Below, piece by piece: positions 22,083 to 40,530 of a stretch of DNA of 45,792 bases (its first letter is position 1; every line of letters starts with the position of its first letter). The stretch spans positions 1 to 45,792 of the forward strand of contig JAKLKB010000040.1 in NCBI GenBank assembly GCA_023150835.1. Reading direction: 5' to 3'. Made by a program: the position numbers and the translations under genes. Origin of the DNA: Myxococcota bacterium (GTDB lineage: Bacteria > Myxococcota_C > UBA6777). The notes under the pieces were generated by a model. That model worked only from the letters and a program-made list of their open reading frames with translations. It was not told the origin of the DNA and made no database searches.

Positions 22083-22251
22083 CCTTGTGGCCTCCTTGTA
22101 CACGATATCGCTTCGGGGAGCGCCCCCAAAAGCCTCAGTTGTACGTACTCTGTTGTTTGGGGCGTGGACTCTTTTGCAACACGCCTGTCAGAGAGTGGGC
22201 AAGGCAATATTCGATGGGTGAATTTTTTTTGAAAAAGTATCGGGATGGCGC

Positions 22252-22408: not shown

Positions 22409-25400
22409 TCAGTCGTCGCTGGCGAGAAGCTGAGAGGCCGAAAGAGAGAGGGGTGGGGATTGTGCGGAACCTTCGAGAAGAAGGGAGGGAAGGTCTTTAT
22501 CGGCTTCGAGGATCAGGTGTGCCTTGAGGGGTGGAGCGTCAGGTTGGGACATGGCTTGAAGCAGCATACGGCTCAAAGGACGGGCAACATAGCGTTCGAT
22601 GGCGCGCAAGAGCGGTCGCGCCCCAAGCGAAGGGTCGAGGCTTTTTTTGACGAGAGCGGCCAAAGCATCGTCGTCTCCGCGTAGATGGACATCTTGTGCA
22701 GCGGCACGTTCGGCCAATTCATCGAAGTGCATGCGTGCGATCTTGAGTAGGTCTTCTTCGACGAGGGGTTGGAAGAGGATGGTTTCGTCGACGCGGTTAA
22801 GGAATTCGGGTCGGAAAAAGCGCCGTAGTTCGGAATCGATCTCTTCTTTGGGGACGGCATCTTCTTCGGAGACTTGGAAGCCGACGGCTTTGCGTTGTCG
22901 TTGGAAACGTTCGGCGAGCAAGTTGGAGGTCATGATAAAGACAGCGTGTCGACCATCTACGGTGCGGCCCAAAGAGTCGGTCAATCGGCCTTCTTCAAAC
23001 AATTGCAAGAAGAGATCGAGGACTTCGGGATGGGCTTTTTCGATCTCGTCCATCAACACGACGCTATAGGGGCGATGGTGAAGTTGTGCGAGGATCTGGC
23101 GCTCTTCGCCGTACCCGACATAACCGGGGGGAGCGCCGATCAGTCGAGAAGTGCTGTGCTTTTCGGCATACTCGGACATATCGAGGCGGATTAAGGCGGA
23201 TTCTTGGCCGAAGAGTTCTCGGGCCAAACAACGGCAAAGCTCGGTTTTGCCGACCCCACTCGGTCCCAAGAACAACATCACAGCGGTGGGTCGGCTGGCG
23301 CGTTTGAGGCCAGCGCGTCCCATCTGTATGGCTTGGGAAACCGCCTTGACAGCGGGTTCTTGGCCGAGGACACGTTGGGCGAGACGTTCTTGGAGTTTGA
23401 GCAAGCGGATGCTTTCTTCGAGGGAGATCTCGCCCACAGGGATGCCAGTCCAATCAGCGAGGACTTTGAAGACGGGAGCTTCGGTGACAAGGGGCCGCTG
23501 TTCGGGAGAGCGCAGTTTGCCTTCGGAAGTCAAGAGCGACGCAGCATATCCACGTAAAGTGACCAAAGCACAGGCTTCATCGATCAAATCGAGCGCCTTG
23601 TCAGGAAGGCGTCGGTCGGGCAAGTAGCGCACGGCAAGTTCGACGGCAGATCGCATGACTTCATCGGAGATCTCGACTTTGTGGTGTTCTTCGTAGCCGT
23701 GACGTGCGCCAAAAAGGATATCCATCGTTTCTTCCATCGACGGTTCTTCGAGGAATAGCGGGTGGAATCGACGTTCAAGGGCGGCGTCTTTTTCGATGTG
23801 TTTGCGGTATTCAACAGGAGTCGTGGCTCCGATGCAACGCAACTCTCCACGCGCAAGGGCGGGTTTTAGGATATTGGCGGCATCAAGTGTGCCTTGGTGT
23901 GTTTCGCCTGCGCCCACAACGGTATGGAATTCATCGAGAAAGAGGATGACTTCGGGATGTTCGCGTGCTTCGCGGATCACCATCGTCAAGCGCTCTTCAA
24001 AGTCACCGCGATAACGGGTTCCTGCGACGAGGCTGGAGAGGGAAAGCTCGACAAGACGGCGTCCACGCAGATCTTCGGGGACAGCGTGGGCGACAATACG
24101 CTGTGCCAGACCTTCGACAAGGGCGGTTTTTCCGACCCCTGCTTCTCCGATGATCAGGGGGTTGTTTTTGAAACGGCGCAAGAGGATCTGTGCCAAGCGC
24201 ATCAGTTCTTCGGAACGCCCCGTCAGCGGGGGCAATGCGCCTTGTTCCGCAAGCAGCGTCAGGTCTCGACCGTAGCGATCGATGGTGGGCGTTTCACCGC
24301 CCGGACGCACGCGGGCTTGGGGGATCTCTCCGCGCAAGAGTTTTTCGTAGAGCTTTTGCGGATCAGCGCCCATCTTTTTGAGGACTTCAAAGGCCAAGCC
24401 TTCGCCGCTTTGCAAGATGGAGGCAAGCAAGTGTTTTTCGCGGACAAGGTGATCGTTGTCTTTGCGCGCTACACTTTCTGCGGCTTTGAGCGCACGAGCG
24501 CAGCGTTGCGTGGGGAGGATCTTGGCGTCGAGCGTGGCATGACCAAAGCCCAAAGCGTAGCGGATGGTATCGCGGACTTTTTTGGGATCGAAGCCCGAGG
24601 TTTCGAGCAAAGCACGCGTCACACCACCGGGACACTTGGTGAGGCCGATAAACAAGTGCGGTGTTCCGATAAAATCTTGGCGAAGGTTCTTGGCTTCCAT
24701 CAGGGCGATGCCGATGGCTTGTTCGAGATCGAAGTCGTATTCGAGCGTTCCGCCTTCCATCGAAAGGGAAGCATCGGCGGGGTTGGCCGCAGGTCCATTT
24801 ACGATGGAGGGGTCGGAACCACCGGAGTTTGCACTTACAGAAGAAGCTCCCGCAGAGGCACTTGCGGGTTCAAGAGAACGCAGCGGAACGGCTGTTTTGT
24901 TGCGAGCATCGGGTTGTTGCAACAGCAAGACGCCGGGATCGCCAAAAAAGACGAAGCTGGACCACGAAGCGTCTTGAGGATTGCGTTGGAGGAAGCGGCG
25001 ACGCGCTTTCATCAAGGCTTCTGCGGGGGGAGTTCGCTCAAACAAAAAGCGGTAGTAGTCGCTGATCATCTGGCGACCACCGCTTGTAAAGTTCGGTCGC
25101 AGCGCGATCACAACACCTTGGACGCCTTCGTCGAGCAGAGAGGAAGCAAAGGAAACGACCGTTGCGGGGGCGTTTGGCGGATGGGCATCGTCTGGGTGGA
25201 AATGAAAGAAAGCCCACAGCGGCCCCGAAAAGACGGTGCGAAGGCTTTTTGGGGTGAGTGGTTCGTTGCGGAGGGGGATCTGGGGTCCGCCGATGGGTTC
25301 AAACGAAGCGCGTGCAGCGACATGCAAGAGCGTGGGTTGAGAGGGTTTGTGGTGGGCTTTGAGGGCTTCTTGAAGGAGAATCCGATCGGTGGCTTCGGAA

Positions 25401-25936
25401 CCAACGAGGCTACGGCTTTGACGGAGCGGCAACTGGTCGGATATCACGTCGATCTCACGGTGTGCTTCTTCGAAGTCGCCGAGCAGGTCGCTCAACATCA
25501 CCACATGAAGATCATCGGGTGCGATGCCTTTGACCACTTCGGTGACCATGCTTGTCGACTCAAACCAGCTCGGCAAGCGGCCCATCGGAGCGCGCAGACC
25601 AAAGTATTCTTCGCCGTCGTGCAAGATCTCCCACGGAAACAGGGGATCTCCGCCACAGATCGCGATAGGCTGTTGATTTTGTTTAAGGATGGTGCGGAAT
25701 TCTTCGGGGATCAACAAGCGGTACAGCGTTTTGCCGATCTCCAAAAGCGTCGGTTGATCAACGCCTTTTTTCCCGGCAGCTGCGTCGTGTGCAAATGCCA
25801 TCATCTTCTGTAGTTCGGTGTCCCCTCGCTCGCCAAGATCTCGCCGAAACTCCATCGGGCCTTGGCGTGGACCCGCAAACCAACGAAATCGAAGAAGAGA
25901 ACCCTTTTTGGTGAGGTGCAGCTTGGGTGTATGCAT
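22409..25936 (-). CDS. CHAT-like domain fused to ClpC/ClpA-type double AAA+ unfoldase
   Basis: The 1175-residue protein has three parts. Residues 1-345 resemble a CHAT (caspase-like) domain: [30 protein letters not shown] and [11 protein letters not shown], then [16 protein letters not shown] and [10 protein letters not shown]. The expected catalytic His and Cys positions appear replaced. A Ser/Ala/Pro linker leads to a double Clp-N repeat (about 400-535). Two AAA+ rings follow: Walker A GEAGVGKT 597-604 with DE at 668-669, and GPSGVGKT 891-898 with DE at 963-964. ERRF (about 721-724) gives an arginine finger and GAR (1105-1107) a sensor 2. There is no ClpB middle domain. AVGF at 1017-1020 sits where ClpC carries its ClpP-docking tripeptide. 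It should unfold proteins with ATP, perhaps for ClpP. The Shine-Dalgarno is weak. Confidence 0.85.
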
Positions 25937-25949
25937 CGTAACCGTCGTT

Positions 25950-26135
25950 TCAATGGGCGCACCGAATCCGCTCGGGCGCGATGGAGGCTACCTCGCGGGG
26001 AGACAAGGCGTCCTTGCCTGTCTCTAGGCCGATCTTGTGTATGATAGTCCACACGCCCACCCCTGTAAAGAGCAACCACCGATCCTTTCCCTCAACAAAC
26101 TTCGCGCCCACCCACCCAAAAACCAGCGTAATCAT
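25950..26135 (-). CDS. Possible small membrane protein upstream of the CHAT-Clp gene
   Basis: An open frame of 61 codons from an ATG at 26135, preceded by GTGGAGATC, encodes a protein with two short hydrophobic stretches (MITLVFGWVGAKF and WLLFTGVGVWTIIHKIG) and a polar C-terminus. It overlaps the end of the decayed ATPase by 4 nt and stops 13 nt before the CHAT-Clp start codon. The position and ribosome-binding site are in favour. Lack of any recognised family and the short length are against. A longer start at 26165 is possible. Confidence 0.35.
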   Translation of the reverse strand: MITLVFGWVGAKFVEGKDRWLLFTGVGVWTIIHKIGLETGKDALSPREVASIAPERIRCAH

Positions 26136-26871
26136 GCCGATCTCCACAACAATCCTTGCCCCCACAAAGCTCCCAGCGTATCGCCTTCCGTCAAAAGGCT
26201 TCGGACTTGTGCGTTATCCTTGATGCGGAACACCTTTGTGAATCCCTCTTTTTTCTCAAACCCAAACACTTCTTCCACCTTCGCAGCATCCAACAATTTA
26301 GGGGAATGTGTGCTGATCATCACTTGCCCACCCCGCCTCGCATAATCACGAAACTCCTCTGCAAGTTCTCGCATAAGCATCGGATACAACTGGTTTTCTG
26401 GTTCTTCCACACAAAGCAGTGGATGCGGTGATGGATCATGCAAAAGAACCAGATAAGCGAACATCTTGATCGTGCCATCGGAGACATGACTCGGACGAGC
26501 TGCATGGATACGAAAATCGGAAAGGTGCCAACGCTCGATCAATCGGCGAAATGCACTCACGACCTTAAATCGTTCAAACTGACCAAGTCCTTTGATAGCG
26601 GGGATATCTGGGGAGTCTTCACGGAATTAGATCTCCCAAAAGATATCCCCGCCGTCTTGTTCGCGGCTGCGCAGTTCCTTCATCCCACCGCGCCGAGAAA
26701 CCGCCACAGAAGCATTGTGTTGCAGAACATCACGCAAAAATCCGAACACATCAAAAAACGTCGACTTTCCGCCCCCATTTGCTCCCACAAAAAACGCAAG
26801 GGGGGAATACGTTCGATCGTCACATCACGAAAAACCCGAAAATTTTTGATCGTCATCCGTTCGATACGCAT
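26132..26871 (-). pseudogene. Decayed AAA ATPase (AAA_21 / OLD-like) gene
   Basis: The start (MRIERMTIKNFRVFRDVTIERIPPL) is typical of a predicted ATPase family with an ABC-like head. The Walker A (VGANGGGKST) and FDVFGFLRDVLQHN then continue in another frame after a run of six G on the plus strand (26797-26802); one missing base explains it. In that frame a TAA follows DIFWEI (26629-26627). The frame then continues with DSPDIPAIKGLGQFERF, the C-terminal LLCVEEPENQLYP (Walker B) and VMISTHSPKLLDA. Compared with intact relatives as I remember them, two inner segments of about 60-70 residues each are also missing. It is therefore a pseudogene, not just a sequencing slip. Confidence 0.82.
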
Positions 26872-26967: not shown

Positions 26968-27870
26968 CTAGGAGAGATGGCTTCTCTCGTCACGGGCATA
27001 CAGCCACAAAGGCTCCGCAGCCCGCCGAAATGTCAGTCGCTGACCAAAAGAAACTTGGTGACGTACCCAAGGCCCATCCAAAAACAACGTGGATTTGCGG
27101 GTGCGCGAGGTCATCCCCAACGTCTGCTCTGCGGTGACGAATCCGTGTATCAGTTCGGGCGGAGGCTCCCAAGGCAGCGGATAGATCTCGCGCACGCGAT
27201 ATTGCAACCGCGTGTCCGACAACGGCATCCGCTCTCCACCCGCCGACAGCATCGCAGCCGTAGAACCCGTTGCTGTCGCGATCCACACTCCACTCGAACG
27301 CTGCACTTCGCATCGCTCTCCCATCACCATCTCATAACGACTCGTCGCCGCAGGGATCGGATGGGCGAACAAGATATCGTTGAGTGCCAAAGGCCGCAGC
27401 GGTTCACCATCCACAAGCACCTCGATCCGCGTGAGTCCCAACAACGCAAGCGCTCCTGACTGGACGCGATCCAAAGCCTGTTCAAATCCCGATGCGTCCG
27501 TCGCCATCAGATGCCCGACCGAAGAAGAAGGAGACGAATTCACCCCAAGCAGCGGCACACTTCCGTACATCTTACGCGCTGCCTCTAACAAAGTACCGTC
27601 CCCTCCGATCGCAACCACCAGATCAAAATCATCCACCGTTTGCGGATTTGCGCGATAGACCCAACGTGATCGGATGTCTCGTTCTTTCAAGACAGCGCGG
27701 ACTTGTTCAAACGCAGCCTCGTTCTCTTGGTGGCTGCGCAGCATCTTCAACGCTGCGGGATCCTGTTGTTCCAAAAGGGCCGAGATATGGGGATCTCCAT
27801 GCTCTTTTACATAGATCTGGAAGTCGCTTTTTTTGTAGATCACCAGTACGTTTTGGATCGTTCGTTTCAC
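26968..27870 (-). CDS. nadK: NAD(+)/NADH kinase
   Basis: NAD kinase phosphorylates NAD(H) to NADP(H) using ATP or polyphosphate. The 300-residue product has the GGDGT motif (89-93; VVAIGGDGTLLEAAR), LLGVNSSP in place of the usual GxNxG, LNDILFAHPIPAATSRYEM and the conserved SSGVWIATATGSTAA. The GTG at 27870 is chosen as start because GGAGAGGG lies 6 nt upstream and the protein then begins at the first strand (RTIQNVLVIYKK). An in-frame GTG 17 codons upstream has no good ribosome-binding site. The VNSSPSSSVGHL loop is slightly unusual for the family. The gene is divergent from the giant gene at 28206. Confidence 0.9.
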   Translation of the reverse strand: MKRTIQNVLVIYKKSDFQIYVKEHGDPHISALLEQQDPAALKMLRSHQENEAAFEQVRAVLKERDIRSRWVYRANPQTVDDFDLVVAIGGDGTLLEAARKMYGSVPLLGVNSSPSSSVGHLMATDASGFEQALDRVQSGALALLGLTRIEVLVDGEPLRPLALNDILFAHPIPAATSRYEMVMGERCEVQRSSGVWIATATGSTAAMLSAGGERMPLSDTRLQYRVREIYPLPWEPPPELIHGFVTAEQTLGMTSRTRKSTLFLDGPWVRHQVSFGQRLTFRRAAEPLWLYARDERSHLS

Positions 27871-28205
27871 GCCAAACCCTCTCCGTCTGTTCTTTTGTTT
27901 GGATGCGTCGACATCACTCACCCACGCGCTCCAACACCTCGCACTTATGCACTTTCAACATCACACATCGATACTGACACGCCTCAAGATACGCCACCAT
28001 ACCGACTCGAAGAAACAAGAGCCATCCATCCTATCCACAAACACCGAAAAATATGCCACATCTGAAAGAAGCACTCGCAAAGAAAGCGATGGCTTTTTTG
28101 TTTTGTTGCGTATGAAGTGGATCATCCACACCTTGCTGCGTCGTCTCAAAAGCGCAAAAGCATCCCCAAGACGCGTAAGCCCATAACCCCCGAAAGGAGC
28201 GAGAG
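27871..28205. other. Divergent intergenic region with a short inverted repeat
   Basis: The 335-bp space between nadK (minus) and the giant gene (plus) must hold promoters for both. A perfect GTGGAT-C-ATCCAC inverted repeat lies at 28117-28129 and could be an operator. AAAGGAG near 28192-28198 is the ribosome-binding site of the downstream gene. I cannot assign -35/-10 pairs with confidence and see no gene. Confidence 0.35.
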
Positions 28206-31200
28206 ATGTCGTGGATTTATCCCGAACGTTGGTCTGGTTGGTCGGAACACGCCCGCGTAGGAGGCGGATTATTCGACGATCCCCATCGTTTCGCACGGAT
28301 GGTGCAGGCTTGTTGGGAGCAATACAGCCAACAAAACGACCTCGCACGTCGCACACCGCTCACTCCGCTCCCTCAACTGCGCCTCGTCTTCTCCCAAGAT
28401 GCCCTCGCCCAAGAACAATGGGCCCCTTGCTTCCAATCCCTCGAACTCTGGTTCAATCCCACCCTCAACGGCTTGGCCCTGCCTTTTGCGCTGCATCCGC
28501 CGACACACGACGAAGCCGCTCTACTACGCGAACCACGCCATTTTTTCTTTCACCTCGAAAGCCCCCGACGCCAAGCCCTGCGCTGTTTGTTTTTGCTTGG
28601 TGAGCAGATCATCGGCGCGATCCCGCTCGGTGAAGTCCAACTCAACGGAGATACACGCACTTTTACGGTCACTCGCCGCTTTGGTATCACAACAAAAAGC
28701 TCGGATCTGTCGCGCTGTATCGACGCCAATCCGATCGCCAACGACCTTCCCTCCGCGATGCGCGATGACTTGCGCTATCTTGGATGGCGACTGGTCTTTC
28801 GGATGTGGGGCGGCGAAGAAGAGATCCAGATCGAAGATGTCGCCGCAACAGGCCGACTCAACGGCGGGATCTTTCAATTACACGACGGCTTGCGCTGCCC
28901 TCTCGGGCAGGCCCTGACCCTCTACGAAGGCCACGAAGACGGCACCCCGCGACCGGCCCTCCGCCTTCGGATGTTGCTCGTCCCCAACGATATCCAGCCC
29001 GCCCCACCCCAGATCGTTCACCTCCAAGCCTTCGCCCACACCAGCGAAGGCCACCCCCCACAGATCGAGTTCCAAGCGTGGCTACGAAACGGCCCTCTCG
29101 ACGATCAGCTCTTGACCTTGGCTCTCCTTGAACAAGGCGCGCAGTTCCAACTCCAAGAAGACGGAACCACCGAAGATGGCGCACTTCACCGCTACCGTTT
29201 GTTAACCGCCCTTCCACCACGATTGCACGCAGGCGATCCCCTCACCTATCGGCTGCTCGGGCAAAATCGCTATGGCTTATCCTTTTCGACCCGCCCCCAA
29301 GAACTCACCCTCCAACAAACCACCCGCGTCCAATTCCAAGGGCCTCGCGTCGTACAACGACGACAACTCGAACAAGATTGGGAGGTGCGTTTTCGCCTCG
29401 AAACCCCCGTCCCTGTCGGATCGATCGATCTTGCTTCGCTGACGTTGTGGTTGCGTGCCGACGAAGCACCTGCGATCTCTATCCCCTTGGCTCATGTCCA
29501 AAAAGAGAGCTTGGTCTTTCGGTTTTTGCCACGTGTGATCCAGATGCAGATGCCCCTTGAGCGCATCCTCCAAGCGCGACAACTCCATCTCTGGCTCGAA
29601 CAACATCCCGACGAAGAATCCTCCGAAACCTTCCCTTCGTGGCGACTTTGTCTCGCAGGCAACCAAGCCCAACAACCGCGTGTCTCGTTGCGCATCGTCC
29701 GCTTTGATGCTTCCGATCACCTGATCGCAAGCGGCACAGAAACGCTCTTGCCCTTGCATGGCGAACTACAGATCGAAGGGTTTCGCCTTCAAATCCTCCC
29801 AAGTCTCTACGATACCCGTCAGTCCGCCACCAGCGAACGCGAGATCTGGGATCTGGTCTTGTGTGAAGACGAAGACGGACCACGCCGCGTCCGCCTCACC
29901 CACCAAGGGGCGGGATGGATGCGTGTTCAACGCCTCACAAAAAACACTCCACCTCCCGCCCACCCCGTTCGCGCCTTTTGGCTCAGTTGCAGCCCCGAAG
30001 ACCAGATCATCCCCCACCCCAACGAGCGCAACCCCGAAGGTGGCCCCTGCTTCGCTTTTGGCCTTGGATGGGGACAAACCCAAGAGATGGCACAGATCCG
30101 CCCCACCCAAGAAGGCTTTCGCCTTGCTCGCCATCGAACCCATCTCGTCGTTCGCACCGATCAAACCGAACTGATCGTCAGCCCTTATACCCATCCCGAA
30201 GGCATCCTGCTCAACCAAGATCCCCAACAAGGTTGGCTACTTGTCGATCAAGTCCTCCTGCACTATCGCTGTTTTCAAGAGGACACTTGGCTTCACGCCG
30301 ATATCACTTTGCTTGGCTACCTCTGCAAGCGCCAACCCTCCGCTGCCCTTTTGCAATTTTCGCTCGGCGAAACCACAAATCTCCCTGCGATCTTGCCCCA
30401 CCTCCCGCACATTCGACTCGCCAGCCAAGGCCCCGCAGGACGTCTCACCTTCCAGCTTCCCGCACCCATGACACGCCGCGATCCCGATCGTTATCTTCTC
30501 CAAGAACACTCCACCCCCACCCTCCCGCAGCCCCTACAGTGGGGACAACGCTATCAACGCGGTCGCTTCGCCTTTTCCTGTTGGCGACTCACACCCACCC
30601 CCTCCGCATCCCCACAAGGCGGAACACTTCAACACGATATCCTCCTCGATATCCGCCAACAAACAGGCCGCAAGCACTTTGCGCTGGCCGTTGTCACTGG
30701 GCGCCTTGGCTATTGGAGCGAAGGGTCGGCCTTTTTGCAACAAACGGGCGTAGCAGCCCCCTTGTTTGCGCCCGATCACCCGCGCAAACTTCCCGACGGC
30801 CTAGAAGCGCCCGCTGGTGAGCTGATCGTCGGAACCGATCCGCGCTTCGCCGACCTCGTGATTCCTACGTTCTATCCAACCGATGCAACCGTCCTCTTCA
30901 GCATCGCGTATCGCGATGCGCAATGGTGGGTCCGTCCTTTTCAAGCCCCTTGTCTCGGCCAATCCCTGCAATTTCTCCATGATGGCGGCCTCACCCGCAG
31001 CGAGACGCTTTGGACAACGCCTTCTCCCTTGACCCCCGAAGAAGAACCTTGGAAGTGGTGGCGCTGCGGCTCCGCTCTATTCGAACTCAGCGTGGCCACC
31101 CATGACCGCGAAGAATACCCCAACACCGACGCGATGCTTTCGCTGCGGGGCCTGTTTTGCGCCGCCACAGATCGCTTGATGATCGGCGGTCCTCCCCGTC

Positions 31201-33839
31201 TATCCGCACTTCCCTTGCTCGGAAGCGGTTTCCCTGACGAACAAAAGCGCCCTCTGTTCTCCCTCGAAGCCTCTGGCTTGCAAGTGCGCTTTGATGGAGA
31301 CGCCATGCTTGGGATGCGCCATCACGAGGCAGGGACCGACCTTTTCAGCAGATTCCAACAGACCCTCGCCCAAACCCCCCTCTCTCCCGCATCAGCCCAC
31401 CACTTACCTTGGCGGCTACTTCAACCCTCCGCCGAGATCGCCCTTCCGCTACTCCCACCCAACCTACACCTCCAAATGCCCACACATCCGTACGCTTTGC
31501 GCAACCACGATCAACTTCGACTTGGTCAACTCAACTTTTGCTATCGCCGACGAGACGAAAGCGACGGTTATCCCGCTCCTTCCGTGATCCCCGCTGCCCT
31601 TGATCTCCAACCTGCGGATCACTTCTCGATCCACTTCTCGGCGACTTCTCATGGATTCCTCCATCCTTCGGGTGATCCCGTGGATCACTTGATCATTGGC
31701 CGCTTGGATCCTCACCAAGATCGCGGCCCACACCTGCCTTCCGCTCTTGGCGAGATCTGGCTCGGCACTCCCTTTCTTGAAGAAGATCATACCTGTATGC
31801 GCCTCTGCCTCAGCGGCTACAGCCCACGACACGCTCTGCTGATCTCCCGAAAAAACGGACAGATCACCCTCCACATCCCTGCCCCCAAAGCCCCCGGTGC
31901 TTATCACGTCGTACTCAACGATACCCCCCAACGCTCCGCCAAAGAGATCCCTCTCCAAACCCCAACACATCTCCACATCAATCATCTGTTCCGCTTGCGC
32001 CTTCAGCCCCTTCCAAACGCCCTTTCCGTTCTCTTTGATGGCTACCTGCTCGCTCATCCCGACGCCCCACACCTCCCCGTCCGCTTCTCTTCCGAAAATC
32101 GACGTGGTGTCATCCACTTGCGCACCGTGCATCCTCCCGATCTCCAACTCCAACCGGACTCCCTTCCTCCGTCATTTCGCGCTGTCGTGTGGCCCACCCC
32201 ACCCGATCACTCTCGCGCATCTCTTCACCCCACAAACCCGGTCCATCCGCCGTCTCCTCGATCACCCCTCCAACCCCACTCCTCGACACTTCCTCCCTCT
32301 TCGACGCAACAAGCCACCACACCCGAGATCGCTGCGATCCAGCGATTCGCCCCCATCAACGGGCCACTTCGACTCCCCGATGGCGAGGAGATCATGCTCG
32401 TCGATCTTTCCACATGGACGCACGACCTCGCCGAGATCGCTCGCCCACCACAAACCGATCGACTGCTTTGGTTCGACGCACACACACCCCACACCGAACT
32501 GCTCTTCCCCCCACAACACACCTCTCCGCTCGCTGCCTCTGCCCTCGACGAAGGCAGCCAATTTGCCTTCGGTACAGAATCCTCCCAAACGACTGACGAT
32601 CTCACGCCTCCCCCATCGCCCGTCTCCTCCGCTCAAGAAGATGACGGCAGCAGCTTCGCTTTCCTTCCCCTGCCGCAACACACCCAACACGCCCCCTCCT
32701 CACAGCCCATCCATCTCGGACCACCTTCGCATCCGTCACATACCGCCGACTTTACCGCTACTTTGCACACTGCCGACGTTACGACATCCTCACACACATC
32801 CCATACCGCCGATCTCGCGGTCCCTTCGTCCCCTTCGCACACCGCCGATTTTACCGCTACTTCCTCTCCTTCACATACCGCTGACTTTACCACCCCTTCA
32901 CAAACTGCCGATATTGCGGTCCCTTCCTCTCCTTCACATACCGCTGACTTTACCGTTCCCTCGCACCCTTCGCAAACTGCCGACTTCGCGGCTCCTTCAC
33001 ATCCTGCACAAACTGCGGGTATTGCGGCTCCTTCACACCCTTCGCACACCGCCGATTTGACCGCCCCCTTAAGCCTTTCGCACGCTGCTGATGTTTCAAT
33101 CCCACCGACAAACGCCCATTCCTCCGAGGCTTCGCCTGCAAACCACACCGAAGCGTCTCGTGCGGTCCCATTGGCTTCGCCCGTTCCTCAAGAAGTCCAA
33201 GCGCGCATCGGGTTTTTTGAAAAGACATCCTACGCCGAGACGTGTTTTGGTTACGCGAGTACACAAGACGGGTGGCAGATCGGGATCTTTGCACGCCAAG
33301 ATCGGATCTTGGCTCAACTTCTCCAAGCTCCTCTGGATGCGGAGGGATGGATGGCGGGGGGATTGGCTGCGATCTGGCGAAATGGAGACATCTTGCCCCT
33401 ACAGCTTCCGCAGTTTTTGGAAGTCGGCGATCTGATCTTGTGCGGTCCTGCGGCTTTTCTTTGCGAAGAAGCTCCGCACCAAGGGCAGATGCGCTTGCGG
33501 CGTCGTTGGCTTTGGCTTCCGCAAGACATACGTTGGACACTCCAAAGCGCATCGTTGCCCGATATCCCGCAGGATGCGTTCGCACTAAGCCACCACACCA
33601 CCGCGTGGTCTCTGCGCATCGAACCCGCGCAGGCTGGACATTTGTTGATCGCGCCCCAAGCAGCGCCCGCACTGCACTGGACCCAAGAGCCGCTCGCTGT
33701 TTCACACGCCCTCGAAGGGATCGAGAGCGCACAACAAGCTCTCCCCCCCCCCTCGACAACTCTTCCCGCTCACCTTTCACCCGCAGCAACGCCGTTTACC
33801 CTCTGCGTGGGTGACTCCAGCCAAGGCAACGCATCATGA
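28206..33839 (+). CDS. Giant 1877-residue protein with FHA-like segments and repeat linker
   Basis: I do not recognise this protein as a whole. It has no signal peptide or membrane helix and looks cytoplasmic, mostly beta-rich. Three segments resemble FHA (phosphothreonine-binding) domains by pattern only: around 150-235 (EIQIEDVAATGRLNGGIF), 868-930 (GELIVGTDPRFADLVIP) and 1158-1275 (DHLIIGRLDP, then SPRHALLISRKNGQ). Residues 1320-1630 are Pro/Ser/Thr/His-rich and include many HTADFT/QTADIA repeats. A final folded part (1650-1877) has Trp/Leu-rich strands. AAAGGAG precedes the ATG. Its stop overlaps the start of the kinase gene (ATGA), so the two are translationally coupled. FHA-like calls are tentative; a phosphoprotein scaffold in the kinase/phosphatase operon is the inferred role. 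Confidence 0.7.
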   Translation: MSWIYPERWSGWSEHARVGGGLFDDPHRFARMVQACWEQYSQQNDLARRTPLTPLPQLRLVFSQDALAQEQWAPCFQSLELWFNPTLNGLALPFALHPPTHDEAALLREPRHFFFHLESPRRQALRCLFLLGEQIIGAIPLGEVQLNGDTRTFTVTRRFGITTKSSDLSRCIDANPIANDLPSAMRDDLRYLGWRLVFRMWGGEEEIQIEDVAATGRLNGGIFQLHDGLRCPLGQALTLYEGHEDGTPRPALRLRMLLVPNDIQPAPPQIVHLQAFAHTSEGHPPQIEFQAWLRNGPLDDQLLTLALLEQGAQFQLQEDGTTEDGALHRYRLLTALPPRLHAGDPLTYRLLGQNRYGLSFSTRPQELTLQQTTRVQFQGPRVVQRRQLEQDWEVRFRLETPVPVGSIDLASLTLWLRADEAPAISIPLAHVQKESLVFRFLPRVIQMQMPLERILQARQLHLWLEQHPDEESSETFPSWRLCLAGNQAQQPRVSLRIVRFDASDHLIASGTETLLPLHGELQIEGFRLQILPSLYDTRQSATSEREIWDLVLCEDEDGPRRVRLTHQGAGWMRVQRLTKNTPPPAHPVRAFWLSCSPEDQIIPHPNERNPEGGPCFAFGLGWGQTQEMAQIRPTQEGFRLARHRTHLVVRTDQTELIVSPYTHPEGILLNQDPQQGWLLVDQVLLHYRCFQEDTWLHADITLLGYLCKRQPSAALLQFSLGETTNLPAILPHLPHIRLASQGPAGRLTFQLPAPMTRRDPDRYLLQEHSTPTLPQPLQWGQRYQRGRFAFSCWRLTPTPSASPQGGTLQHDILLDIRQQTGRKHFALAVVTGRLGYWSEGSAFLQQTGVAAPLFAPDHPRKLPDGLEAPAGELIVGTDPRFADLVIPTFYPTDATVLFSIAYRDAQWWVRPFQAPCLGQSLQFLHDGGLTRSETLWTTPSPLTPEEEPWKWWRCGSALFELSVATHDREEYPNTDAMLSLRGLFCAATDRLMIGGPPRLSALPLLGSGFPDEQKRPLFSLEASGLQVRFDGDAMLGMRHHEAGTDLFSRFQQTLAQTPLSPASAHHLPWRLLQPSAEIALPLLPPNLHLQMPTHPYALRNHDQLRLGQLNFCYRRRDESDGYPAPSVIPAALDLQPADHFSIHFSATSHGFLHPSGDPVDHLIIGRLDPHQDRGPHLPSALGEIWLGTPFLEEDHTCMRLCLSGYSPRHALLISRKNGQITLHIPAPKAPGAYHVVLNDTPQRSAKEIPLQTPTHLHINHLFRLRLQPLPNALSVLFDGYLLAHPDAPHLPVRFSSENRRGVIHLRTVHPPDLQLQPDSLPPSFRAVVWPTPPDHSRASLHPTNPVHPPSPRSPLQPHSSTLPPSSTQQATTPEIAAIQRFAPINGPLRLPDGEEIMLVDLSTWTHDLAEIARPPQTDRLLWFDAHTPHTELLFPPQHTSPLAASALDEGSQFAFGTESSQTTDDLTPPPSPVSSAQEDDGSSFAFLPLPQHTQHAPSSQPIHLGPPSHPSHTADFTATLHTADVTTSSHTSHTADLAVPSSPSHTADFTATSSPSHTADFTTPSQTADIAVPSSPSHTADFTVPSHPSQTADFAAPSHPAQTAGIAAPSHPSHTADLTAPLSLSHAADVSIPPTNAHSSEASPANHTEASRAVPLASPVPQEVQARIGFFEKTSYAETCFGYASTQDGWQIGIFARQDRILAQLLQAPLDAEGWMAGGLAAIWRNGDILPLQLPQFLEVGDLILCGPAAFLCEEAPHQGQMRLRRRWLWLPQDIRWTLQSASLPDIPQDAFALSHHTTAWSLRIEPAQAGHLLIAPQAAPALHWTQEPLAVSHALEGIESAQQALPPPSTTLPAHLSPAATPFTLCVGDSSQGNAS
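32736..33104 (+). repeat. Degenerate in-frame repeats encoding (S/P)-x-TAD-(F/I/L/V)-x units
   Basis: About twelve units of variable length (mostly 24-36 bp) encode SHTADFT, QTADIA, SHTADLA and similar, joined by SSPSP or SHPS. The conserved core is (H/Q)TA(D/G). Spacing changes by whole codons, so the frame is kept. The regularly placed threonines next to aspartate could be phosphorylation sites for the linked kinase; that is inference. Confidence 0.75.
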
Positions 33840-36800
33840 ACCCACCTTCTTTTTCCATCCACCACGTTGAACTACACATCGACGCGCTTTGTGCATGGCG
33901 CGATCGCTACCGCGAAGTCTACAGCAGCGGCACACAACGCCCACAACTGGGCACGGAGATCTGGTGGGCCGAAGATCACACCGGCCAAGAACGCTGCCTC
34001 AAAGAGTTCATGGCTGCTGATCTCGAAGACTTTGGACGCAAGATCCCCGATCCTGCGTGGGGATTGGGGGGCAAACCTCGCGGCTCACAACGCGGCCTTG
34101 CGCCTCGACGAGCCGCCATCTACGACCAGATCCATCACGGCTCACTCAAACAAGAGATCGCACGCTTCGGACCCAACGCAAACCCCGAGTTTCGCAGCCT
34201 CTTTTGCGTCTCTGCTTTTGAACTCGAATCCTTAATCACCCAATTTGCCCGCTATTATGGATGCACCCAACTCGTCCAAGCCGATCACTGGGGACCGATC
34301 CGCTTAGAAAGCCGCAAAAAAGCTTTTCCTCTGATCGAGATGGAACGCCTTTCTCCGCTTACATTGCCCCACCCGCACGATGCCCTGAGCATCCTCGATC
34401 GCGTGCTGGCGATGATGTCTGCGGTCGTTCAGCTTCACAGTATGCAGATCCCCTTGCGCTGCTATCCTCCTGAACTGGTTCCTGATCTCGATCTTCCCGC
34501 CTCTTGGAACTTTGCGCGTCCCTTTCATTACGATCTCTCCCCCGACCAATTCTTGCTGCGTGCAGGAAACGCCCAAACCACCGACCAAGTCGTCTTGATC
34601 GACTTTGGGGCAGCTCGTATCGATCAAACCGATTTTTCCGAGTTTGCGTGGCGCAGCATCCCGGGAAAAGACTACTATCAGCCCCCCGAACGGCGCGCTC
34701 ATCCTCTTGGGCAGACGCTCGCGTTATCGTATCGCTCCCACCCCGCTTATGATCTGTACGCGCTGCTTGTGATCGCCCTTTTCCTTTTTGCTCGCCAAGA
34801 TCCACACCAAGAAAAGATCCAACAAATCGATTCATGGAACGATACCACCGGCTTTTACGCTTTCTTGTTCCAAGATGACCTCGCCTCCGCACTCCAAGCC
34901 TTCTTTCCCTCTCGCAAGTACATCGATCCGACCCCCTTGATGGCCTTGATGCGTGCTGTCTTTCAAAAAAAGCCCGAACAACGCACCGAATCGCTTCTCG
35001 CTTTACCAGACCTCCGCTGGCCCCACGAACAAGACTGGATGTTGCTCCCCCGTGCAATGGATCTCCTCGCCAAACAATCTATGGGACGCCGTTTTCAGAT
35101 CCAATGGAAACAAAATCCGATCTCCCTCCCACAACACCACGCACCTTTTCCGCTCCACGCCCACCTCGATCCACAACAAACCCGATGGACCCCCGGAAAA
35201 TGGGAAAACGGACGCATCAACCACCCGCTCTATTCACTCGATCAGATCTTCTTCTTCCAAGACGGCGCACTCGGACCCGTCCTTTTTAACGGACACATCC
35301 ACCCTCAAACACCCGGCAAACACACGATCTACGCTTCCTTTGGCGGATGCGTCGACTTCCTCAATCCCCTGATCGTCGAGATCCAGCCCACACCACAACC
35401 ACCCGCACAACAGCCGCAGCTTTCCCCACAACCACCCGCACAACAGCCGCAGCTTTCCCCACAACCACCCGCACAACAGCCGCAGCTTTCCCCACAACCA
35501 CCCGCACAACCCGCACCACAACCCTATCTCTCCCATCATCCCGCCACTTCCGCTACCTCCGCAGCTTCCGCCACTTCCGCTACCATCCCAAGCCCACATG
35601 ATACAATTCTTGATGATCCAGCCGTCTTGCAAGCCGTCTGGGAAGATATCACACGCAGCAAAAGTCTATCGCCTCAAGCAACCCATCCTCTCGAACAAAC
35701 CGACCCCTACGCGGCCTCCGCACAAACGGCTCCGCACTACACTTCTGCGCCTTCGATGCCATCGAGCTTTCACACAACACAACCTCCCTACACAAGATAC
35801 TCGACCTCCAGCCAAGCCGAGCCTTCCGACATCTTTTCTGCCCCCAAAGATCTATCAGGCTCCGCGATCTTTCCTGCCTCCAAAGACCTCGATGATTCGG
35901 GCATCTTTGAATCACCCTATCCCAGAAACGCGCCTGCTTCCGTACCTTACAACACACCTGCTTCAACACCATACAACACACCTGCTTCTGCGCCTTATCA
36001 CCCGCAATCTCCCGCAGGAACACGCATCCATCACCGCGAAGCAGCACAATCCGCCCCGCCTCCATCAGCGCCTGTTGGACGGCCCCACCCCAACGACGCA
36101 GCACAAATCCCTCACAAGGCCCAAAACGACGGAACGGGATTTTATGATCGTGAAGCGGCCCTTGCTTCCCAAGGCTCTTCTCCGCACGCCCTCGCTTCGC
36201 CACCGCCTTCTTCAGCGCATTCGGCACGTCCCGCGTTTGCGGCTTCTCCTCTTCCGACCCCGCGTGCTTGGCAAGCCCCCTCAAGCGTCTCCCCTGAGAT
36301 GCTTTCCGATCCGCCGTGGGTCGCCGATCTAAAGGCTCCCGCCGCAAAGCTCCGTCCACCCGACGCCAACGCGCCTGTTTACCCGCCCTCAGCCCACACA
36401 GACTTCGGCTCGGATCGTTATGTTCGTGCGGATGCCGCCATCGACCAATTGGCCGAACACTCCGCCTCTTCTCGTCCGGATATCTCCGATCCGACCGCCT
36501 CATGGCTCCAAGAGATCCAACGCTGCGATGATCCCGCAAAGCTACTGCGCGATGAAGAAAATGCCCAACGGATGGCCAACGAAGAACTCACGACGCTACT
36601 GTTGATCAATATCCTCTCGCGTCATTGTCAGCTTCTGTGTGATCGCCATCAACTGCGAGCGCGCAGCCAAGAACTCCACCGCCTCGCTCTATTGCGTGAG
36701 CGCACCATGCCCACCCCACACATCGAAGGTCTCTGGCTCAACAACCTTGCGATGCTTTGTTGCCGCCTCGCTCTCTATGAGCGGATCTGGCCGCTGTGGG

Positions 36801-36970
36801 ATGGCCTGCTCGGTATCGATCCGATCAAAGCCCTCGCTGCATGGCTCAAACAACACCAAAACACCACCCCTCCCGAAGCAAGCCCCCGCTTTTGGGAGAT
36901 CCGCGATTGTGTGCGCGATACCCTCGAAACGGGCCTACGCATCCGCCAATCTTTGCGCAAACGCACTTAA
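33836..36970 (+). CDS. Atypical Ser/Thr kinase-like protein with Pro-rich linker
   Basis: The 1044-residue protein begins with a divergent protein kinase domain (about 35-420). A possible ATP lysine is K56 (RCLKEF). The catalytic loop is HYDLSPDQFLL with D233, in place of HRDLKPxN, and the metal motif is IDFGAAR with D256. The usual Asn is replaced by Gln, so activity may be low or altered. No classic Gly-rich loop is clear. Next is an Ig-like stretch (about 440-520), a low-complexity linker with QPPAQQPQLSP repeats and PASxPYNT repeats (520-860), and a helical C-terminal domain (about 880-1040; TPR-like). It has no membrane helix. The start overlaps the giant gene stop; the PP2C gene lies 660 bp downstream. 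Confidence 0.75.
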   Translation: MNPPSFSIHHVELHIDALCAWRDRYREVYSSGTQRPQLGTEIWWAEDHTGQERCLKEFMAADLEDFGRKIPDPAWGLGGKPRGSQRGLAPRRAAIYDQIHHGSLKQEIARFGPNANPEFRSLFCVSAFELESLITQFARYYGCTQLVQADHWGPIRLESRKKAFPLIEMERLSPLTLPHPHDALSILDRVLAMMSAVVQLHSMQIPLRCYPPELVPDLDLPASWNFARPFHYDLSPDQFLLRAGNAQTTDQVVLIDFGAARIDQTDFSEFAWRSIPGKDYYQPPERRAHPLGQTLALSYRSHPAYDLYALLVIALFLFARQDPHQEKIQQIDSWNDTTGFYAFLFQDDLASALQAFFPSRKYIDPTPLMALMRAVFQKKPEQRTESLLALPDLRWPHEQDWMLLPRAMDLLAKQSMGRRFQIQWKQNPISLPQHHAPFPLHAHLDPQQTRWTPGKWENGRINHPLYSLDQIFFFQDGALGPVLFNGHIHPQTPGKHTIYASFGGCVDFLNPLIVEIQPTPQPPAQQPQLSPQPPAQQPQLSPQPPAQQPQLSPQPPAQPAPQPYLSHHPATSATSAASATSATIPSPHDTILDDPAVLQAVWEDITRSKSLSPQATHPLEQTDPYAASAQTAPHYTSAPSMPSSFHTTQPPYTRYSTSSQAEPSDIFSAPKDLSGSAIFPASKDLDDSGIFESPYPRNAPASVPYNTPASTPYNTPASAPYHPQSPAGTRIHHREAAQSAPPPSAPVGRPHPNDAAQIPHKAQNDGTGFYDREAALASQGSSPHALASPPPSSAHSARPAFAASPLPTPRAWQAPSSVSPEMLSDPPWVADLKAPAAKLRPPDANAPVYPPSAHTDFGSDRYVRADAAIDQLAEHSASSRPDISDPTASWLQEIQRCDDPAKLLRDEENAQRMANEELTTLLLINILSRHCQLLCDRHQLRARSQELHRLALLRERTMPTPHIEGLWLNNLAMLCCRLALYERIWPLWDGLLGIDPIKALAAWLKQHQNTTPPEASPRFWEIRDCVRDTLETGLRIRQSLRKRT
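35393..35510 (+). repeat. 33-bp in-frame tandem repeat in the kinase-like gene
   Basis: Three identical 33-bp units (35393-35425, 35426-35458, 35459-35491) and a partial fourth encode QPPAQQPQLSP. Identity of units shows recent expansion. A similar but looser array encodes PASxPYNT near 35935-36000. Confidence 0.88.
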
Positions 36971-36991
36971 CCACCGACGCAGAGAGCATCC

Positions 36992-37117
36992 TTGACGCCG
37001 TTCTTTCAAGCATATCAACAACGCCGAGACAAAGACGACTATATCGAAGGTTGTCGAAGCATTTGGATACGTTTGTCCAGTATTGTGTTCACCAGAAGAA
37101 CTTGGGGGTTCAGATGA
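36992..37117 (+). CDS. Possible 41-residue ORF coupled to the next small gene
   Basis: From TTG at 36992 an open frame encodes a basic, aromatic-rich peptide (TPFFQAYQQRRDKDDYIEGC, then RTWGFR). It stops in an ATGA overlap with the small gene at 37114, a sign of coupled translation. The frame is the same as that of the kinase gene, opening right after its stop. I do not recognise it. It may be a remnant of a longer partner gene of the next protein. Confidence 0.25.
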   Translation: MTPFFQAYQQRRDKDDYIEGCRSIWIRLSSIVFTRRTWGFR

Positions 37118-37314
37118 GGAATGATCCGATCGTAGAAGAAGTCCGCAAGTATCGACAAGAGCATGCCGCATCGTTCGGCTATGACCTTGCCAAAATCTGC
37201 CTTGCGTTGCAAGAACAAGAGAGAACATCCAGTCGCCCTGTCGTCAATCGCTCTCCTCGTTTGCTGCCAAAGAAAAACGCCACCGAATCTTTTGTTGCAA
37301 ACCAGCAGTCCTAA
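37114..37314 (+). CDS. Small conserved protein (antitoxin-like family)
   Basis: The 66-residue product reads MRNDPIVEEVRKYRQEHAAS, then FGYDLAKICLALQEQER and a basic tail. I know this pattern (DPIVxEVRxxRxEHAxxFxYDLxxI) as a very common small bacterial family, often next to toxin-antitoxin or PIN-type genes; its function is not established as far as I know. GGGGG lies about 6 nt before the ATG. It sits alone between the kinase and the phosphatase genes, so it may be an insertion into this cluster. Its usual partner is not visible, unless the 41-codon frame upstream is what is left of it. Confidence 0.65.
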   Translation: MRNDPIVEEVRKYRQEHAASFGYDLAKICLALQEQERTSSRPVVNRSPRLLPKKNATESFVANQQS

Positions 37315-37632
37315 CGTCAACGACCGATCGTCACCCTCTCTGCTGGTGCTGGAATTTGCCAGCGGATTATCACCGAGTCCTCTAGAGAAAGTGCTTGCTG
37401 ACGCTGACGCCGTCGTGCTCGCAAAAATCGTCGAAAACAAAGTGACTGGTGTTCAAACCAAACCAAAAAAAGAAACCGACGCGATCGCCTCCAAAGCCTC
37501 GCAAAGCCCCGTTGACAGGGAAGCCAAATATGGCGAAAGATGCTTGGTTCTTGCCCCTCTGCGTTGCATTGCATCCAAGCGCACACTATCCACCACGCAC
37601 ACGAACCAACGCTCACCGAGAGGAGTCTTGCG
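37315..37632 (+). other. Spacer before the phosphatase gene; coding status unclear
   Basis: An open frame from an ATG at 37181 to 37654 crosses this space and would encode a hydrophobic stretch with cysteines (ALSSIALLVCC), then a more ordinary part (LLVLEFASGLSPSPLEKVLADADAVVLAKIVENKV). It could be a lipoprotein, but it overlaps the 66-residue gene in another frame and the phosphatase start, and its ending is poor. I do not annotate it as a gene. GAGAGGAG at 37618-37625 is the phosphatase ribosome-binding site. Confidence 0.3.
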
Positions 37633-40530
37633 ATGTCCTTACGAATCTTGCTGACAGGCCGCAGTGATCGCCATACTCGCCCCTCAAATCAAGATCGCCT
37701 CTACCCTTCGGAGGACAAACTACCCGCGAGCCTCGATCTGCCTCAATGCCTTGCAGTGGCCGATGGGATGGGTGGCACAGACAACGGAGAATTTGCGGCA
37801 CAGATCGCCGTTCAAGACCTACCGCACTTGATGCACCCGTCGCGTTGGTCGGTACTTCACGCAGGACCGAAACATCCGCCACCCCAAGAAAACAATCTCT
37901 CGCCCGAACAATCCATTGAGGCGTATTTTCGCTACATCAACCAGCGCATTATTCAAAGTGCCGGTGGTTCGGGTCAATCCGGGACGACGTTGTCATTGAT
38001 CTATCTTGACAACGAGCATTTTTGGCTGGGCCATATCGGGGACAGTCGTGTGTATCTGTATCGCCAAAACACACTTACGCGGCTGACGCGAGACGATCAT
38101 GCGCTGGACTACTTCAAAGAAAAAGGCGCGATCACGCTCAACCCTGCGGATCTTGACCTAAACGAAGCCGATCGCCGCTATCTTGAAGAACAAAAACTGC
38201 ACCATCACACACTGCTGTTTTTACCCGATGCTCCGCCCTCACAGCCGTTGGACAACACCGCCATCCTCTCGTTGCTGCGTGATCAAGTCAAACACCTGCA
38301 CCAGATCGGAAAACTCAGCCCGATCGAAGAACTCCAAGATCGCCTGATGCGCGCCCTTGGCTCCGACAAAGCCTTTCAAGAACGCCCGATCCTGCAACCC
38401 GCTATCGAGCAGATCCAAGCCCTGCCTCGCCCAAGCGATCTGTTTTTGCTTTGCACAGACGGTCTTTGGAATCACCTCACCGATCAAGCGATCGCCGAGC
38501 GTTTCCGACAGCTTTTGCGCCGCAGCAAAACCGCCCACCTCGATCCCGCCCTATTGACGTGGTGTTGCGATCAATTAATCGAAGACGCCATCCAAGCAGG
38601 TTCCGACGACAACATCACCGTTTTGCTTGGGCAGATCCTGCCTTCTCGCACCGCTCCGCACACCCTTTCGAGCGAAAATTACCCCAAAGACCTCAAAAAG
38701 ATCCTCGCCTCCGCTCATCTTGCAGACCAAGAACCCGAGGATCTTTTTCAACAACCCACCCGACTCGATCCGCTCCTTCTCGAAGAAGCTCCCGACGATC
38801 TGTTTGCACAATCCACCTCTTTCCAAACCAAACCCGCACAGATCGGCGACTTTACCGCACCTCCCACAATCACCGCTGCGCCCTATTCTGCCCCGCCTCC
38901 AACAACCACGCCCCTCCCAACCGATGCACCCAAACCAACACCTTCTCGCCTCTCTCCCATCCCCTCCACAAGCCCGACAGGTTCTTCGGCCCAAATCACC
39001 GAACCCTTCCGCGCAACCTCTTCACAACCCACACCTTCAAAAAACACACAACCCAAAACCCCCATCGTCCACACCATCGACGATATCGAAGCCCTCCCAA
39101 GCCAACCCACCAAACTTCCCCCCCCTCAAAACGCCTTGCGCGCCTCTTTTTCCCTTCCCTCCGAAACCAAGCCCCCCCAACCCTCCGAAACCTCGTTCAG
39201 GCCCAAAACGCCCCAACCCTCGGCCTCTCCGAACGAAACCAAAACGCCCCAACCCTCGGCCTCTCCGAACGAAACCAAAACGCCCCAACCCTCGGCCTCT
39301 CCGAACGAAACCAAAACGCCCCAACCCTCGGCCTCTCCTGCTCCCCACAAAGCATCCACCCCAACCACGAACCAAACGGCCCCACAAGACCCATTCCACG
39401 ACTCTTTCGCCAAAACCGTCCAAGATCAGCCTGTGGCTCCCCTCGATCCCTCGGTACTTTTGGCGGCTTCACCTGCGCCCGCTCACGCCCCCACAGGAAC
39501 CCGCTTTTCTGCCCCCATCCCTTCTGCCCCAGAACGCCACACGCCCACAAAGCCCCATCCGATCACACAACAAGAACGCTTCCTCTGGATCGGCATCTCC
39601 AGCACGCTGTTTTTGCTTTGTTTGTTTGCATGGCTCGGCTCTCCTCCATCTCCCGCCGTCCCCACCCACCCGCGCACCAACGCCACCCCACGACGCCCCA
39701 TGCCTTCGCCCCTTCCTTCCGCTGCGATCGCCCCCACACCACCGCCCACACCACCCGCGCCATCACCTTCGACCACCACGCCCACACCTCCGCACGCACC
39801 CGCCAACACTCCCAAGCCGCCCTCACCACCGCCCGCACCGACAGGCCCGTGGCTTTGGCTCCCAAGCCAACTCCCCAAACCTCTCGATTCTTCCTTCCTT
39901 CAAACGCGCCTGCGCATCCTCCAACAGATCCACCTCCTCCACCAAGATCTCGCTCTGCAATGGGGGCTTCCTCCTGAAACACTTCGCCGCCTACGCCGAA
40001 CCCTCCATCAACAAGCCCTCAGCACCCAAGTCATCCATCAATACAGCCTCCAACCGATCACATCCACCCAAAAACAAGCCGTCGATCTCGCCCTACAGAC
40101 CGCATTAATCGCCACCCTTGAAGCACTCGCTCCCACCTACACCCAAAAGCTCGACATGATGCGCTCTCCCCCCGAACTCCCCCAAGGCGCTCCGTTATTA
40201 CCCTTCCCTTCGGCCAAACGAAAAAGCGCCCGCCAAGACTTGATCCAGCGTTGGCTGCAACGCGCCCAACAGATCGGCTGGAACCTGTGGCAACTCGAAC
40301 TACTCGCCGAACAGATCCTCGATTTTCCCTATCCATCCAACGCCACTCTGCGCAAAGGGCCGTGGATCCCATCCGATCTCGACGCCATCCGACGCACCAG
40401 CACCCGACTCCAACGCGCCATCCAACTCATCCAAAAAGAAGACCCCAAACACGCCTTGCTACCCGATCTCCAAAACCGCCTCCAGATCCAACAAGCGTGG
40501 CTCAACGAAACCATCAAAGAAAAACCTTAA
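37633..40530 (+). CDS. PP2C-type Ser/Thr phosphatase with TM anchor and exported C-terminal domain
   Basis: The 965-residue protein starts with a PP2C metal-dependent phosphatase domain (about 1-340): NQDRLY, VADGMGG (D44, G45), SGTTLSLIYL, GDSRVYLY (D137), LTRDDHALD, CTDGLWNHL (D276) and SDDNITV (D325, D326). The metal-binding acidic residues are all there, so it should be active. A Pro/Thr/Ser-rich linker (345-640) carries exact NETKTPQPSASP repeats. One membrane helix follows (about 649-669, FLWIGISSTLFLLCLFAWLG), then a Pro-rich stretch and a helical domain (735-965) that should be outside the membrane. The ATG at 37633 follows GAGAGGAG and matches PP2C N-termini. It probably counteracts the kinase encoded upstream. 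Confidence 0.88.
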   Translation: MSLRILLTGRSDRHTRPSNQDRLYPSEDKLPASLDLPQCLAVADGMGGTDNGEFAAQIAVQDLPHLMHPSRWSVLHAGPKHPPPQENNLSPEQSIEAYFRYINQRIIQSAGGSGQSGTTLSLIYLDNEHFWLGHIGDSRVYLYRQNTLTRLTRDDHALDYFKEKGAITLNPADLDLNEADRRYLEEQKLHHHTLLFLPDAPPSQPLDNTAILSLLRDQVKHLHQIGKLSPIEELQDRLMRALGSDKAFQERPILQPAIEQIQALPRPSDLFLLCTDGLWNHLTDQAIAERFRQLLRRSKTAHLDPALLTWCCDQLIEDAIQAGSDDNITVLLGQILPSRTAPHTLSSENYPKDLKKILASAHLADQEPEDLFQQPTRLDPLLLEEAPDDLFAQSTSFQTKPAQIGDFTAPPTITAAPYSAPPPTTTPLPTDAPKPTPSRLSPIPSTSPTGSSAQITEPFRATSSQPTPSKNTQPKTPIVHTIDDIEALPSQPTKLPPPQNALRASFSLPSETKPPQPSETSFRPKTPQPSASPNETKTPQPSASPNETKTPQPSASPNETKTPQPSASPAPHKASTPTTNQTAPQDPFHDSFAKTVQDQPVAPLDPSVLLAASPAPAHAPTGTRFSAPIPSAPERHTPTKPHPITQQERFLWIGISSTLFLLCLFAWLGSPPSPAVPTHPRTNATPRRPMPSPLPSAAIAPTPPPTPPAPSPSTTTPTPPHAPANTPKPPSPPPAPTGPWLWLPSQLPKPLDSSFLQTRLRILQQIHLLHQDLALQWGLPPETLRRLRRTLHQQALSTQVIHQYSLQPITSTQKQAVDLALQTALIATLEALAPTYTQKLDMMRSPPELPQGAPLLPFPSAKRKSARQDLIQRWLQRAQQIGWNLWQLELLAEQILDFPYPSNATLRKGPWIPSDLDAIRRTSTRLQRAIQLIQKEDPKHALLPDLQNRLQIQQAWLNETIKEKP
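39205..39340 (+). repeat. 36-bp exact tandem repeat in the PP2C gene
   Basis: Three identical 36-bp units at 39205-39240, 39241-39276 and 39277-39312, and 26 bp of a fourth, encode KTPQPSASPNET. Absence of any substitution points to very recent expansion in the linker between the phosphatase domain and the membrane helix. There are no spacers, so it is not a CRISPR array. Confidence 0.92.

Follow-up and report, generated by a model that had tools for sequence, protein, structure and literature searches.

A Clp-type unfoldase with an N-terminal pseudo-CHAT domain as a candidate built-in adaptor in a small bacterial phylum

The window is a stretch of 45,792 nucleotides from a Myxococcota bacterium (contig JAKLKB010000040.1). 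The minus-strand ORF at 22409-25936 is a single gene of 1175 amino acids with an ATG start, which is called CHAT-Clp here. A preliminary description of the window, made from the letters alone, gave these coordinates correctly, and the CHAT strings that it quoted are found in the protein. Pfam places the domains in the order CHAT, Clp_N, AAA, AAA_lid_9, AAA_2 and ClpB_D2-small, with Clp_N matched in two stretches, AAA at residues 594-707, AAA_2 at 882-1051 and ClpB_D2-small at 1058-1131. The features of the gene are as follows.

22409..25936, minus strand: CHAT-Clp gene, 1175 aa (ORF and Pfam; orthologues in 5/5 phylum genomes)
24908..25936, minus strand: pseudo-CHAT domain, residues 1-343, with Pfam CHAT at 66-333 = 24938-25741 (Pfam, fold search)
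25310..25312, minus strand: Arg209 at the catalytic His site (alignment)
25196..25198, minus strand: His247 at the catalytic Cys site (alignment)
24743..24907, minus strand: variable linker of about 55 residues from CHAT to Clp-N, residues 344-398 (orthologue identity)
24302..24742, minus strand: Clp-N domain, residues 399-545 (Pfam; ClpC alignment; 84-86% conserved)
23537..24301, minus strand: AAA+ ring 1 (D1), residues 546-800 (Pfam; ClpC alignment; motifs)
D1 motifs: Walker A 597-604, pore loop AGTRYRG 638-644, Walker B 664-671
23462..23548, minus strand: short D1-D2 connector at the ClpC M-domain site, residues 797-825 (ClpC alignment)
22784..23461, minus strand: AAA+ ring 2 (D2), residues 826-1051 (Pfam; ClpC alignment; motifs)
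D2 motifs: Walker A 891-898, pore loop GAPPGYVGY 934-942, Walker B 959-969
22877..22885, minus strand: VGF, residues 1018-1020, predicted ClpP-docking tripeptide (ClpC alignment, orthologues)
22544..22765, minus strand: D2-small domain, residues 1058-1131 (Pfam)

The N-terminal part matches the Pfam CHAT profile (PF12770) at positions 2-289 of 289, with an E-value of 6.5e-13 and a score of 49.2 bits against a cut-off of 24. All five orthologues likewise match the profile over the full domain. A sequence search of this part against solved structures gave no match, but a fold search did. The structure model used was built from six sequences and has a pLDDT of 67; it matches the SAVED-CHAT protein 8tl0 with a Z score of 16.3 over 179 residues, followed by the anti-sigma factor DdvA (Z 13.4), caspase-6 (12.9) and separase (12.6). 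The CHAT-like N-terminus proposed by eye in the preliminary description is therefore borne out by the full-length Pfam match, with which structure prediction and fold search agree.

The catalytic dyad had been suspected of being lost. The column of the catalytic His (209) holds His in 24/24 CHAT domains from outside the family and Arg in 5/5 CHAT-Clp proteins, and the column of the catalytic Cys (247) holds Cys in 24/24 outside domains and H, H, G, E and Q in the five CHAT-Clp proteins. Both dyad residues are thus missing in every family member (0/5). A dyad hidden by misalignment is ruled out: no Cys position in the CHAT part is common to all members, and in one orthologue this part contains no Cys at all, therefore the nucleophile cannot be restored by realignment. 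Around the former active site Arg209, His205 and His245 are invariant across CHAT-Clp, and His205 is invariant in ordinary CHAT domains as well. The dN/dS between the two closest genomes is 0.03 for the CHAT part; for the stretch of motor present on both contigs it is 0.009. The CHAT value indicates purifying selection; the domain is therefore maintained and a decaying pseudo-domain is ruled out. On the sequence evidence, the CHAT part is a pseudoenzyme which has retained the fold and lost the peptidase chemistry, and the invariant Arg209 suggests that the pocket is still put to some use. Identity among orthologues is 46-48% in CHAT compared to 84-87% in Clp-N and D1, and the linker has 31-35% identity to the orthologues G002 and G004 compared to about 85% in Clp-N. 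The fast change of the CHAT part would fit a receptor for shifting partners and would equally fit a loosely constrained accessory domain.

The remainder of the protein is a complete Clp-N, AAA1 and AAA2 machine, as first described; the Pfam matches agree, and the Walker A, Walker B and tyrosine pore-loop motifs are present in both rings. Its nearest solved structures are ClpC (best 3j3s, E 2e-194). The VGF at 1018-1020, which had been placed at the position of the ClpP loop of ClpC, does align with the VGF of B. subtilis ClpC. Every orthologue that reaches this region (four readable lineages) has VGF or LGF, and the flanks of the loop vary. The M-domain is absent, since 54 ClpC residues are replaced by about 10 in the alignment (ClpC 410 to 465; CHAT-Clp 407 to 418). 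In S. aureus ClpC the N-terminal domain stabilises the repressed state through contacts with the M-domain and the ATPase domains, and the mutations E32A/E106A in its phosphoarginine-pocket glutamates relieve repression (PMC12583610). In CHAT-Clp the position of Glu32 is Pro426 and that of Glu106 is Lys or Arg at 501 (Lys501 in the window protein).

The earlier label of a ClpC-type unfoldase needs qualifying: it holds for the nearest solved relatives and the aligned VGF, but the M-domain and the phosphoarginine-pocket glutamates are absent. The protein also scores far below the NCBIfam cut-offs for ClpA (648 compared to 993), ClpB (753 compared to 1232) and ClpV (633 compared to 885). In a maximum-likelihood tree CHAT-Clp forms a clade of its own (100% support), whose attachment to ClpC or to ClpB stays undecided. 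A full-length AlphaFold model from five sequences was discarded (pLDDT 43). ClpC of B. subtilis and S. aureus, the Hsp100 unfoldase of ClpCP, shares Clp-N, D1, D2, D2-small and the VGF position with CHAT-Clp, which differs in its extra N-terminal CHAT domain and linker, the missing M-domain and the replaced E32/E106. ClpA of ClpAP also has a ClpP tripeptide and no long middle domain, but is less similar to the motor, and the genome of the window has two separate ClpA-like proteins. The ClpI proteins of Actinomycetota are another phylogenetically distinct double-ring class with a variable N-terminus; the available part of the source describes an LGF motif that is kept or missing depending on the sub-class and an M-domain of ClpC length, and mentions no CHAT domain (PMC10149685). 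The CHAT-Clp motor is probably closest to ClpC and is predicted to dock ClpP through its VGF or LGF.

The fusion is present in 5/5 genomes examined of a small phylum, with complete proteins of about 1166-1175 amino acids; in one of the five the gene is truncated by the end of its contig. As five genomes with separate assemblies carry the same fusion, a frame or assembly artefact is ruled out. CHAT-Clp is the sole CHAT domain in each of these genomes, and the records of the four other orthologues are labelled as Deltaproteobacteria or Myxococcota MAGs. A scan of 84,980 species with two 8-residue patterns found four orthologues and one cyclase-CHAT. The sensitive search covered about 395 genomes overall, with a second sample that largely overlapped the first. 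When 386 genomes were searched with a profile, 22 outside the phylum had CHAT relatives, and no fetched frame was fused to Clp. Scans of viral contigs gave ordinary Clp ATPases only, none with CHAT; among the plasmids and phages searched no CHAT relative merited follow-up, and the motor matched only ordinary Clp proteins there. These results support, but do not prove, a narrow phylogenetic range. The preliminary description knew of no CHAT-Clp system, which fits the literature searched (part of the literature, with few subscription journals), where no such protein is described. The architecture is new, while its component parts are known.

Several relatives share one part or the other. The cyclase-CHAT proteins (a Nitrospirae MAG; L132 and L060) are among the closest CHAT relatives that the searches gave (E 3e-14), but have an intact dyad (AGH, NAC/NSC) and a fused cyclase domain and no Clp. 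Each of these fusions (L132 2345-5245, L060 7386-10610) is adjoined by a similar repeat-rich gene. TPR-CHAT (Csx29) of Craspase and SAVED-CHAT have the same CHAT fold but are proteases without an attached unfoldase, regulated by RNA or nucleotide signals (PMC9729208). A Clp-like AAA+ protein with a fused death-like domain is also described (PMC8195603). It resembles CHAT-Clp in that an interaction domain of conflict type sits on a Clp motor, and differs in its N-terminal fold; the source mentions it once and gives no mechanism.

The gene neighbours of CHAT-Clp are conserved on the upstream side in three genera and are not conserved on the downstream side. The conserved features are as follows.

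26968..27921, minus strand: NAD-kinase-like gene, kept as a neighbour in three genera (synteny)
28206..40530, plus strand: divergent cluster of a 1877-aa protein, a kinase-like 1044-aa protein and a PP2C phosphatase (kept next to CHAT-Clp in three genera)

These neighbours do not form one operon with CHAT-Clp and their orientation differs between genera. Synteny makes the kinase/PP2C cluster a candidate partner of CHAT-Clp. The 1877-aa protein (28206-33839, plus strand) has no known family match and about 34% identity in other genera, where the kinase-like protein beside it is divergent in sequence. In a sister species an anti-phage HEC-01 pair adjoins CHAT-Clp. The pair is broken in the window, where an AAA_21 ATPase remnant lies at 26132-26560 on the minus strand; at this place the sister species carries a HEC-01-like pair that is longer. 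HEC-01 was not found at the CHAT-Clp locus in other genera. The PADLOC anti-phage models do not cover the CHAT part, and among the matches listed only AAA parts such as 844-1013 are matched.

The window also has two repeat-bearing genes. The first (20466-22103, minus strand) encodes a lipoprotein-like protein in which a formylglycine-generating-enzyme-like domain comes after about four Cys-rich repeats that are nearly identical, and is not kept beside CHAT-Clp in other genomes. The other (3048-4253, plus strand) encodes an FMN-binding subunit of an Nqr operon with about ten APIRPMP-type proline-rich repeats at its C-terminus.

Every phylum genome examined has two good ClpP genes. The genome of the window has two ClpA-like proteins, one of which is beside ClpS, as well as ClpX-like proteins and two ClpB-like proteins which both have long middle domains. 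CHAT-Clp is therefore an addition to general proteolysis. The arginine kinase McsB had no match in the phylum and none in the control genomes either. Three consecutive Clp-like double-AAA+ genes of 1258, 1397 and 1014 amino acids also occur at G000:C70:104155-118281 (locus L116 4155-18281). Their N-termini are of no recognised type and their C-termini are long; the first has a PCRF (release-factor) match with an E-value of 3.9e-6. Comparable groups of long Clp-like genes are found in other genera and form long branches in the tree, far from ClpA/B/C.

ClpC works with exchangeable adaptors such as MecA. The tentative reading preferred here, which falls a little short of an even chance, is that CHAT-Clp is a core single-copy Hsp100 unfoldase closest to ClpC, with the pseudo-CHAT domain as a built-in adaptor, and that it feeds ClpP. 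The preliminary description had already suggested a receptor or adaptor role for the dead fold. Six pseudo-CHAT domains on flexible linkers would lie above the ring and Clp-N of a hexameric unfoldase, in the place where ClpC takes its adaptors. Each would use the former substrate groove to hold a peptide or a partner, which would then go to the motor, and ClpP below the ring would receive the unfolded chain, a step suggested by the VGF. Since the M-domain and the phosphoarginine-pocket glutamates are missing, other control may be needed and CHAT is the obvious candidate; as a built-in adaptor it would substitute for both the adaptor and the M-domain control of ClpC. A regulatory role of CHAT in gating, assembly or ligand sensing is almost as likely as a role in delivering substrates.

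The corresponding rival reading, in which CHAT is a control domain for allostery or assembly and not a substrate receptor, comes close to the adaptor reading but is somewhat unlikely. The ring would be switched on or off by CHAT on binding a small molecule or a signalling protein, which may come from the neighbouring kinase/PP2C cluster, while Clp-N and the pore choose the substrates. Another brake would be expected in a protein without the M-domain and phosphoarginine-pocket repression of ClpC, and the 84-86% conservation of Clp-N would be expected if Clp-N does the recognition. The title of the 8tl0 entry also states that the activated CHAT protein forms filaments. The kinase-like/PP2C cluster stays adjacent in three genera, but its orientation changes between them without a common operon, and no ligand site was identified in CHAT.

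It is improbable that CHAT-Clp acts without ClpP as a stand-alone remodeller or disaggregase. The VGF could have been inherited without use, as an ancestral relic; the ClpI sub-classes described in PMC10149685 differ in keeping the LGF motif, and ClpA-like, ClpS and ClpX-like proteins already serve degradation in the same genome. However, the hydrophobic-Gly-Phe motif is kept in four/four readable lineages while its flanks vary, and ClpB-type disaggregases do not have it. The genome also already has two ClpB-like proteins with long middle domains.

An anti-phage or conflict system, in which the pseudo-CHAT senses an invader and the unfoldase is the effector, is quite improbable. In MoxR-vWA ternary systems about 70% of the effector-position caspase domains are inactive (PMC7159879), the death-like domain of PMC8195603 is on a Clp-like ATPase, and the HEC-01 module adjoins the gene within its genus. 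However, presence in 5/5 genomes as a single copy with one conserved flank indicates a core gene and not a patchy mobile one; HEC-01 is missing at the locus in other genera, and CHAT lies outside every PADLOC model. Finally, it is highly improbable that CHAT is still a peptidase through other residues such as His205 and His245, which are invariant with Arg209 around the former active site, since the family has no conserved Cys and His205, being invariant in ordinary CHATs too, is probably structural.

The adaptor reading can be extended to a self-contained machine for degradation: a former caspase-like protease, now retired, would serve a ClpP-partner unfoldase as its permanent substrate receptor, would replace both adaptors and M-domain brake, and would be wired to the neighbouring kinase/phosphatase cluster. 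This full version is rather doubtful.

ClpC depends on separate adaptors and on a resting state that guards against harmful degradation. The data for CHAT-Clp suggest that a retired protease would help to choose or control what the motor unfolds, which would probably be passed on for destruction. If this is true, the substrate groove of one protease may be reusable as a receptor or switch for a second proteolytic machine. CHAT-Clp adds a conserved bacterial pseudoenzyme to the CHAT/caspase clan and may offer a one-gene, testable system for how AAA+ proteases acquire new specificity.
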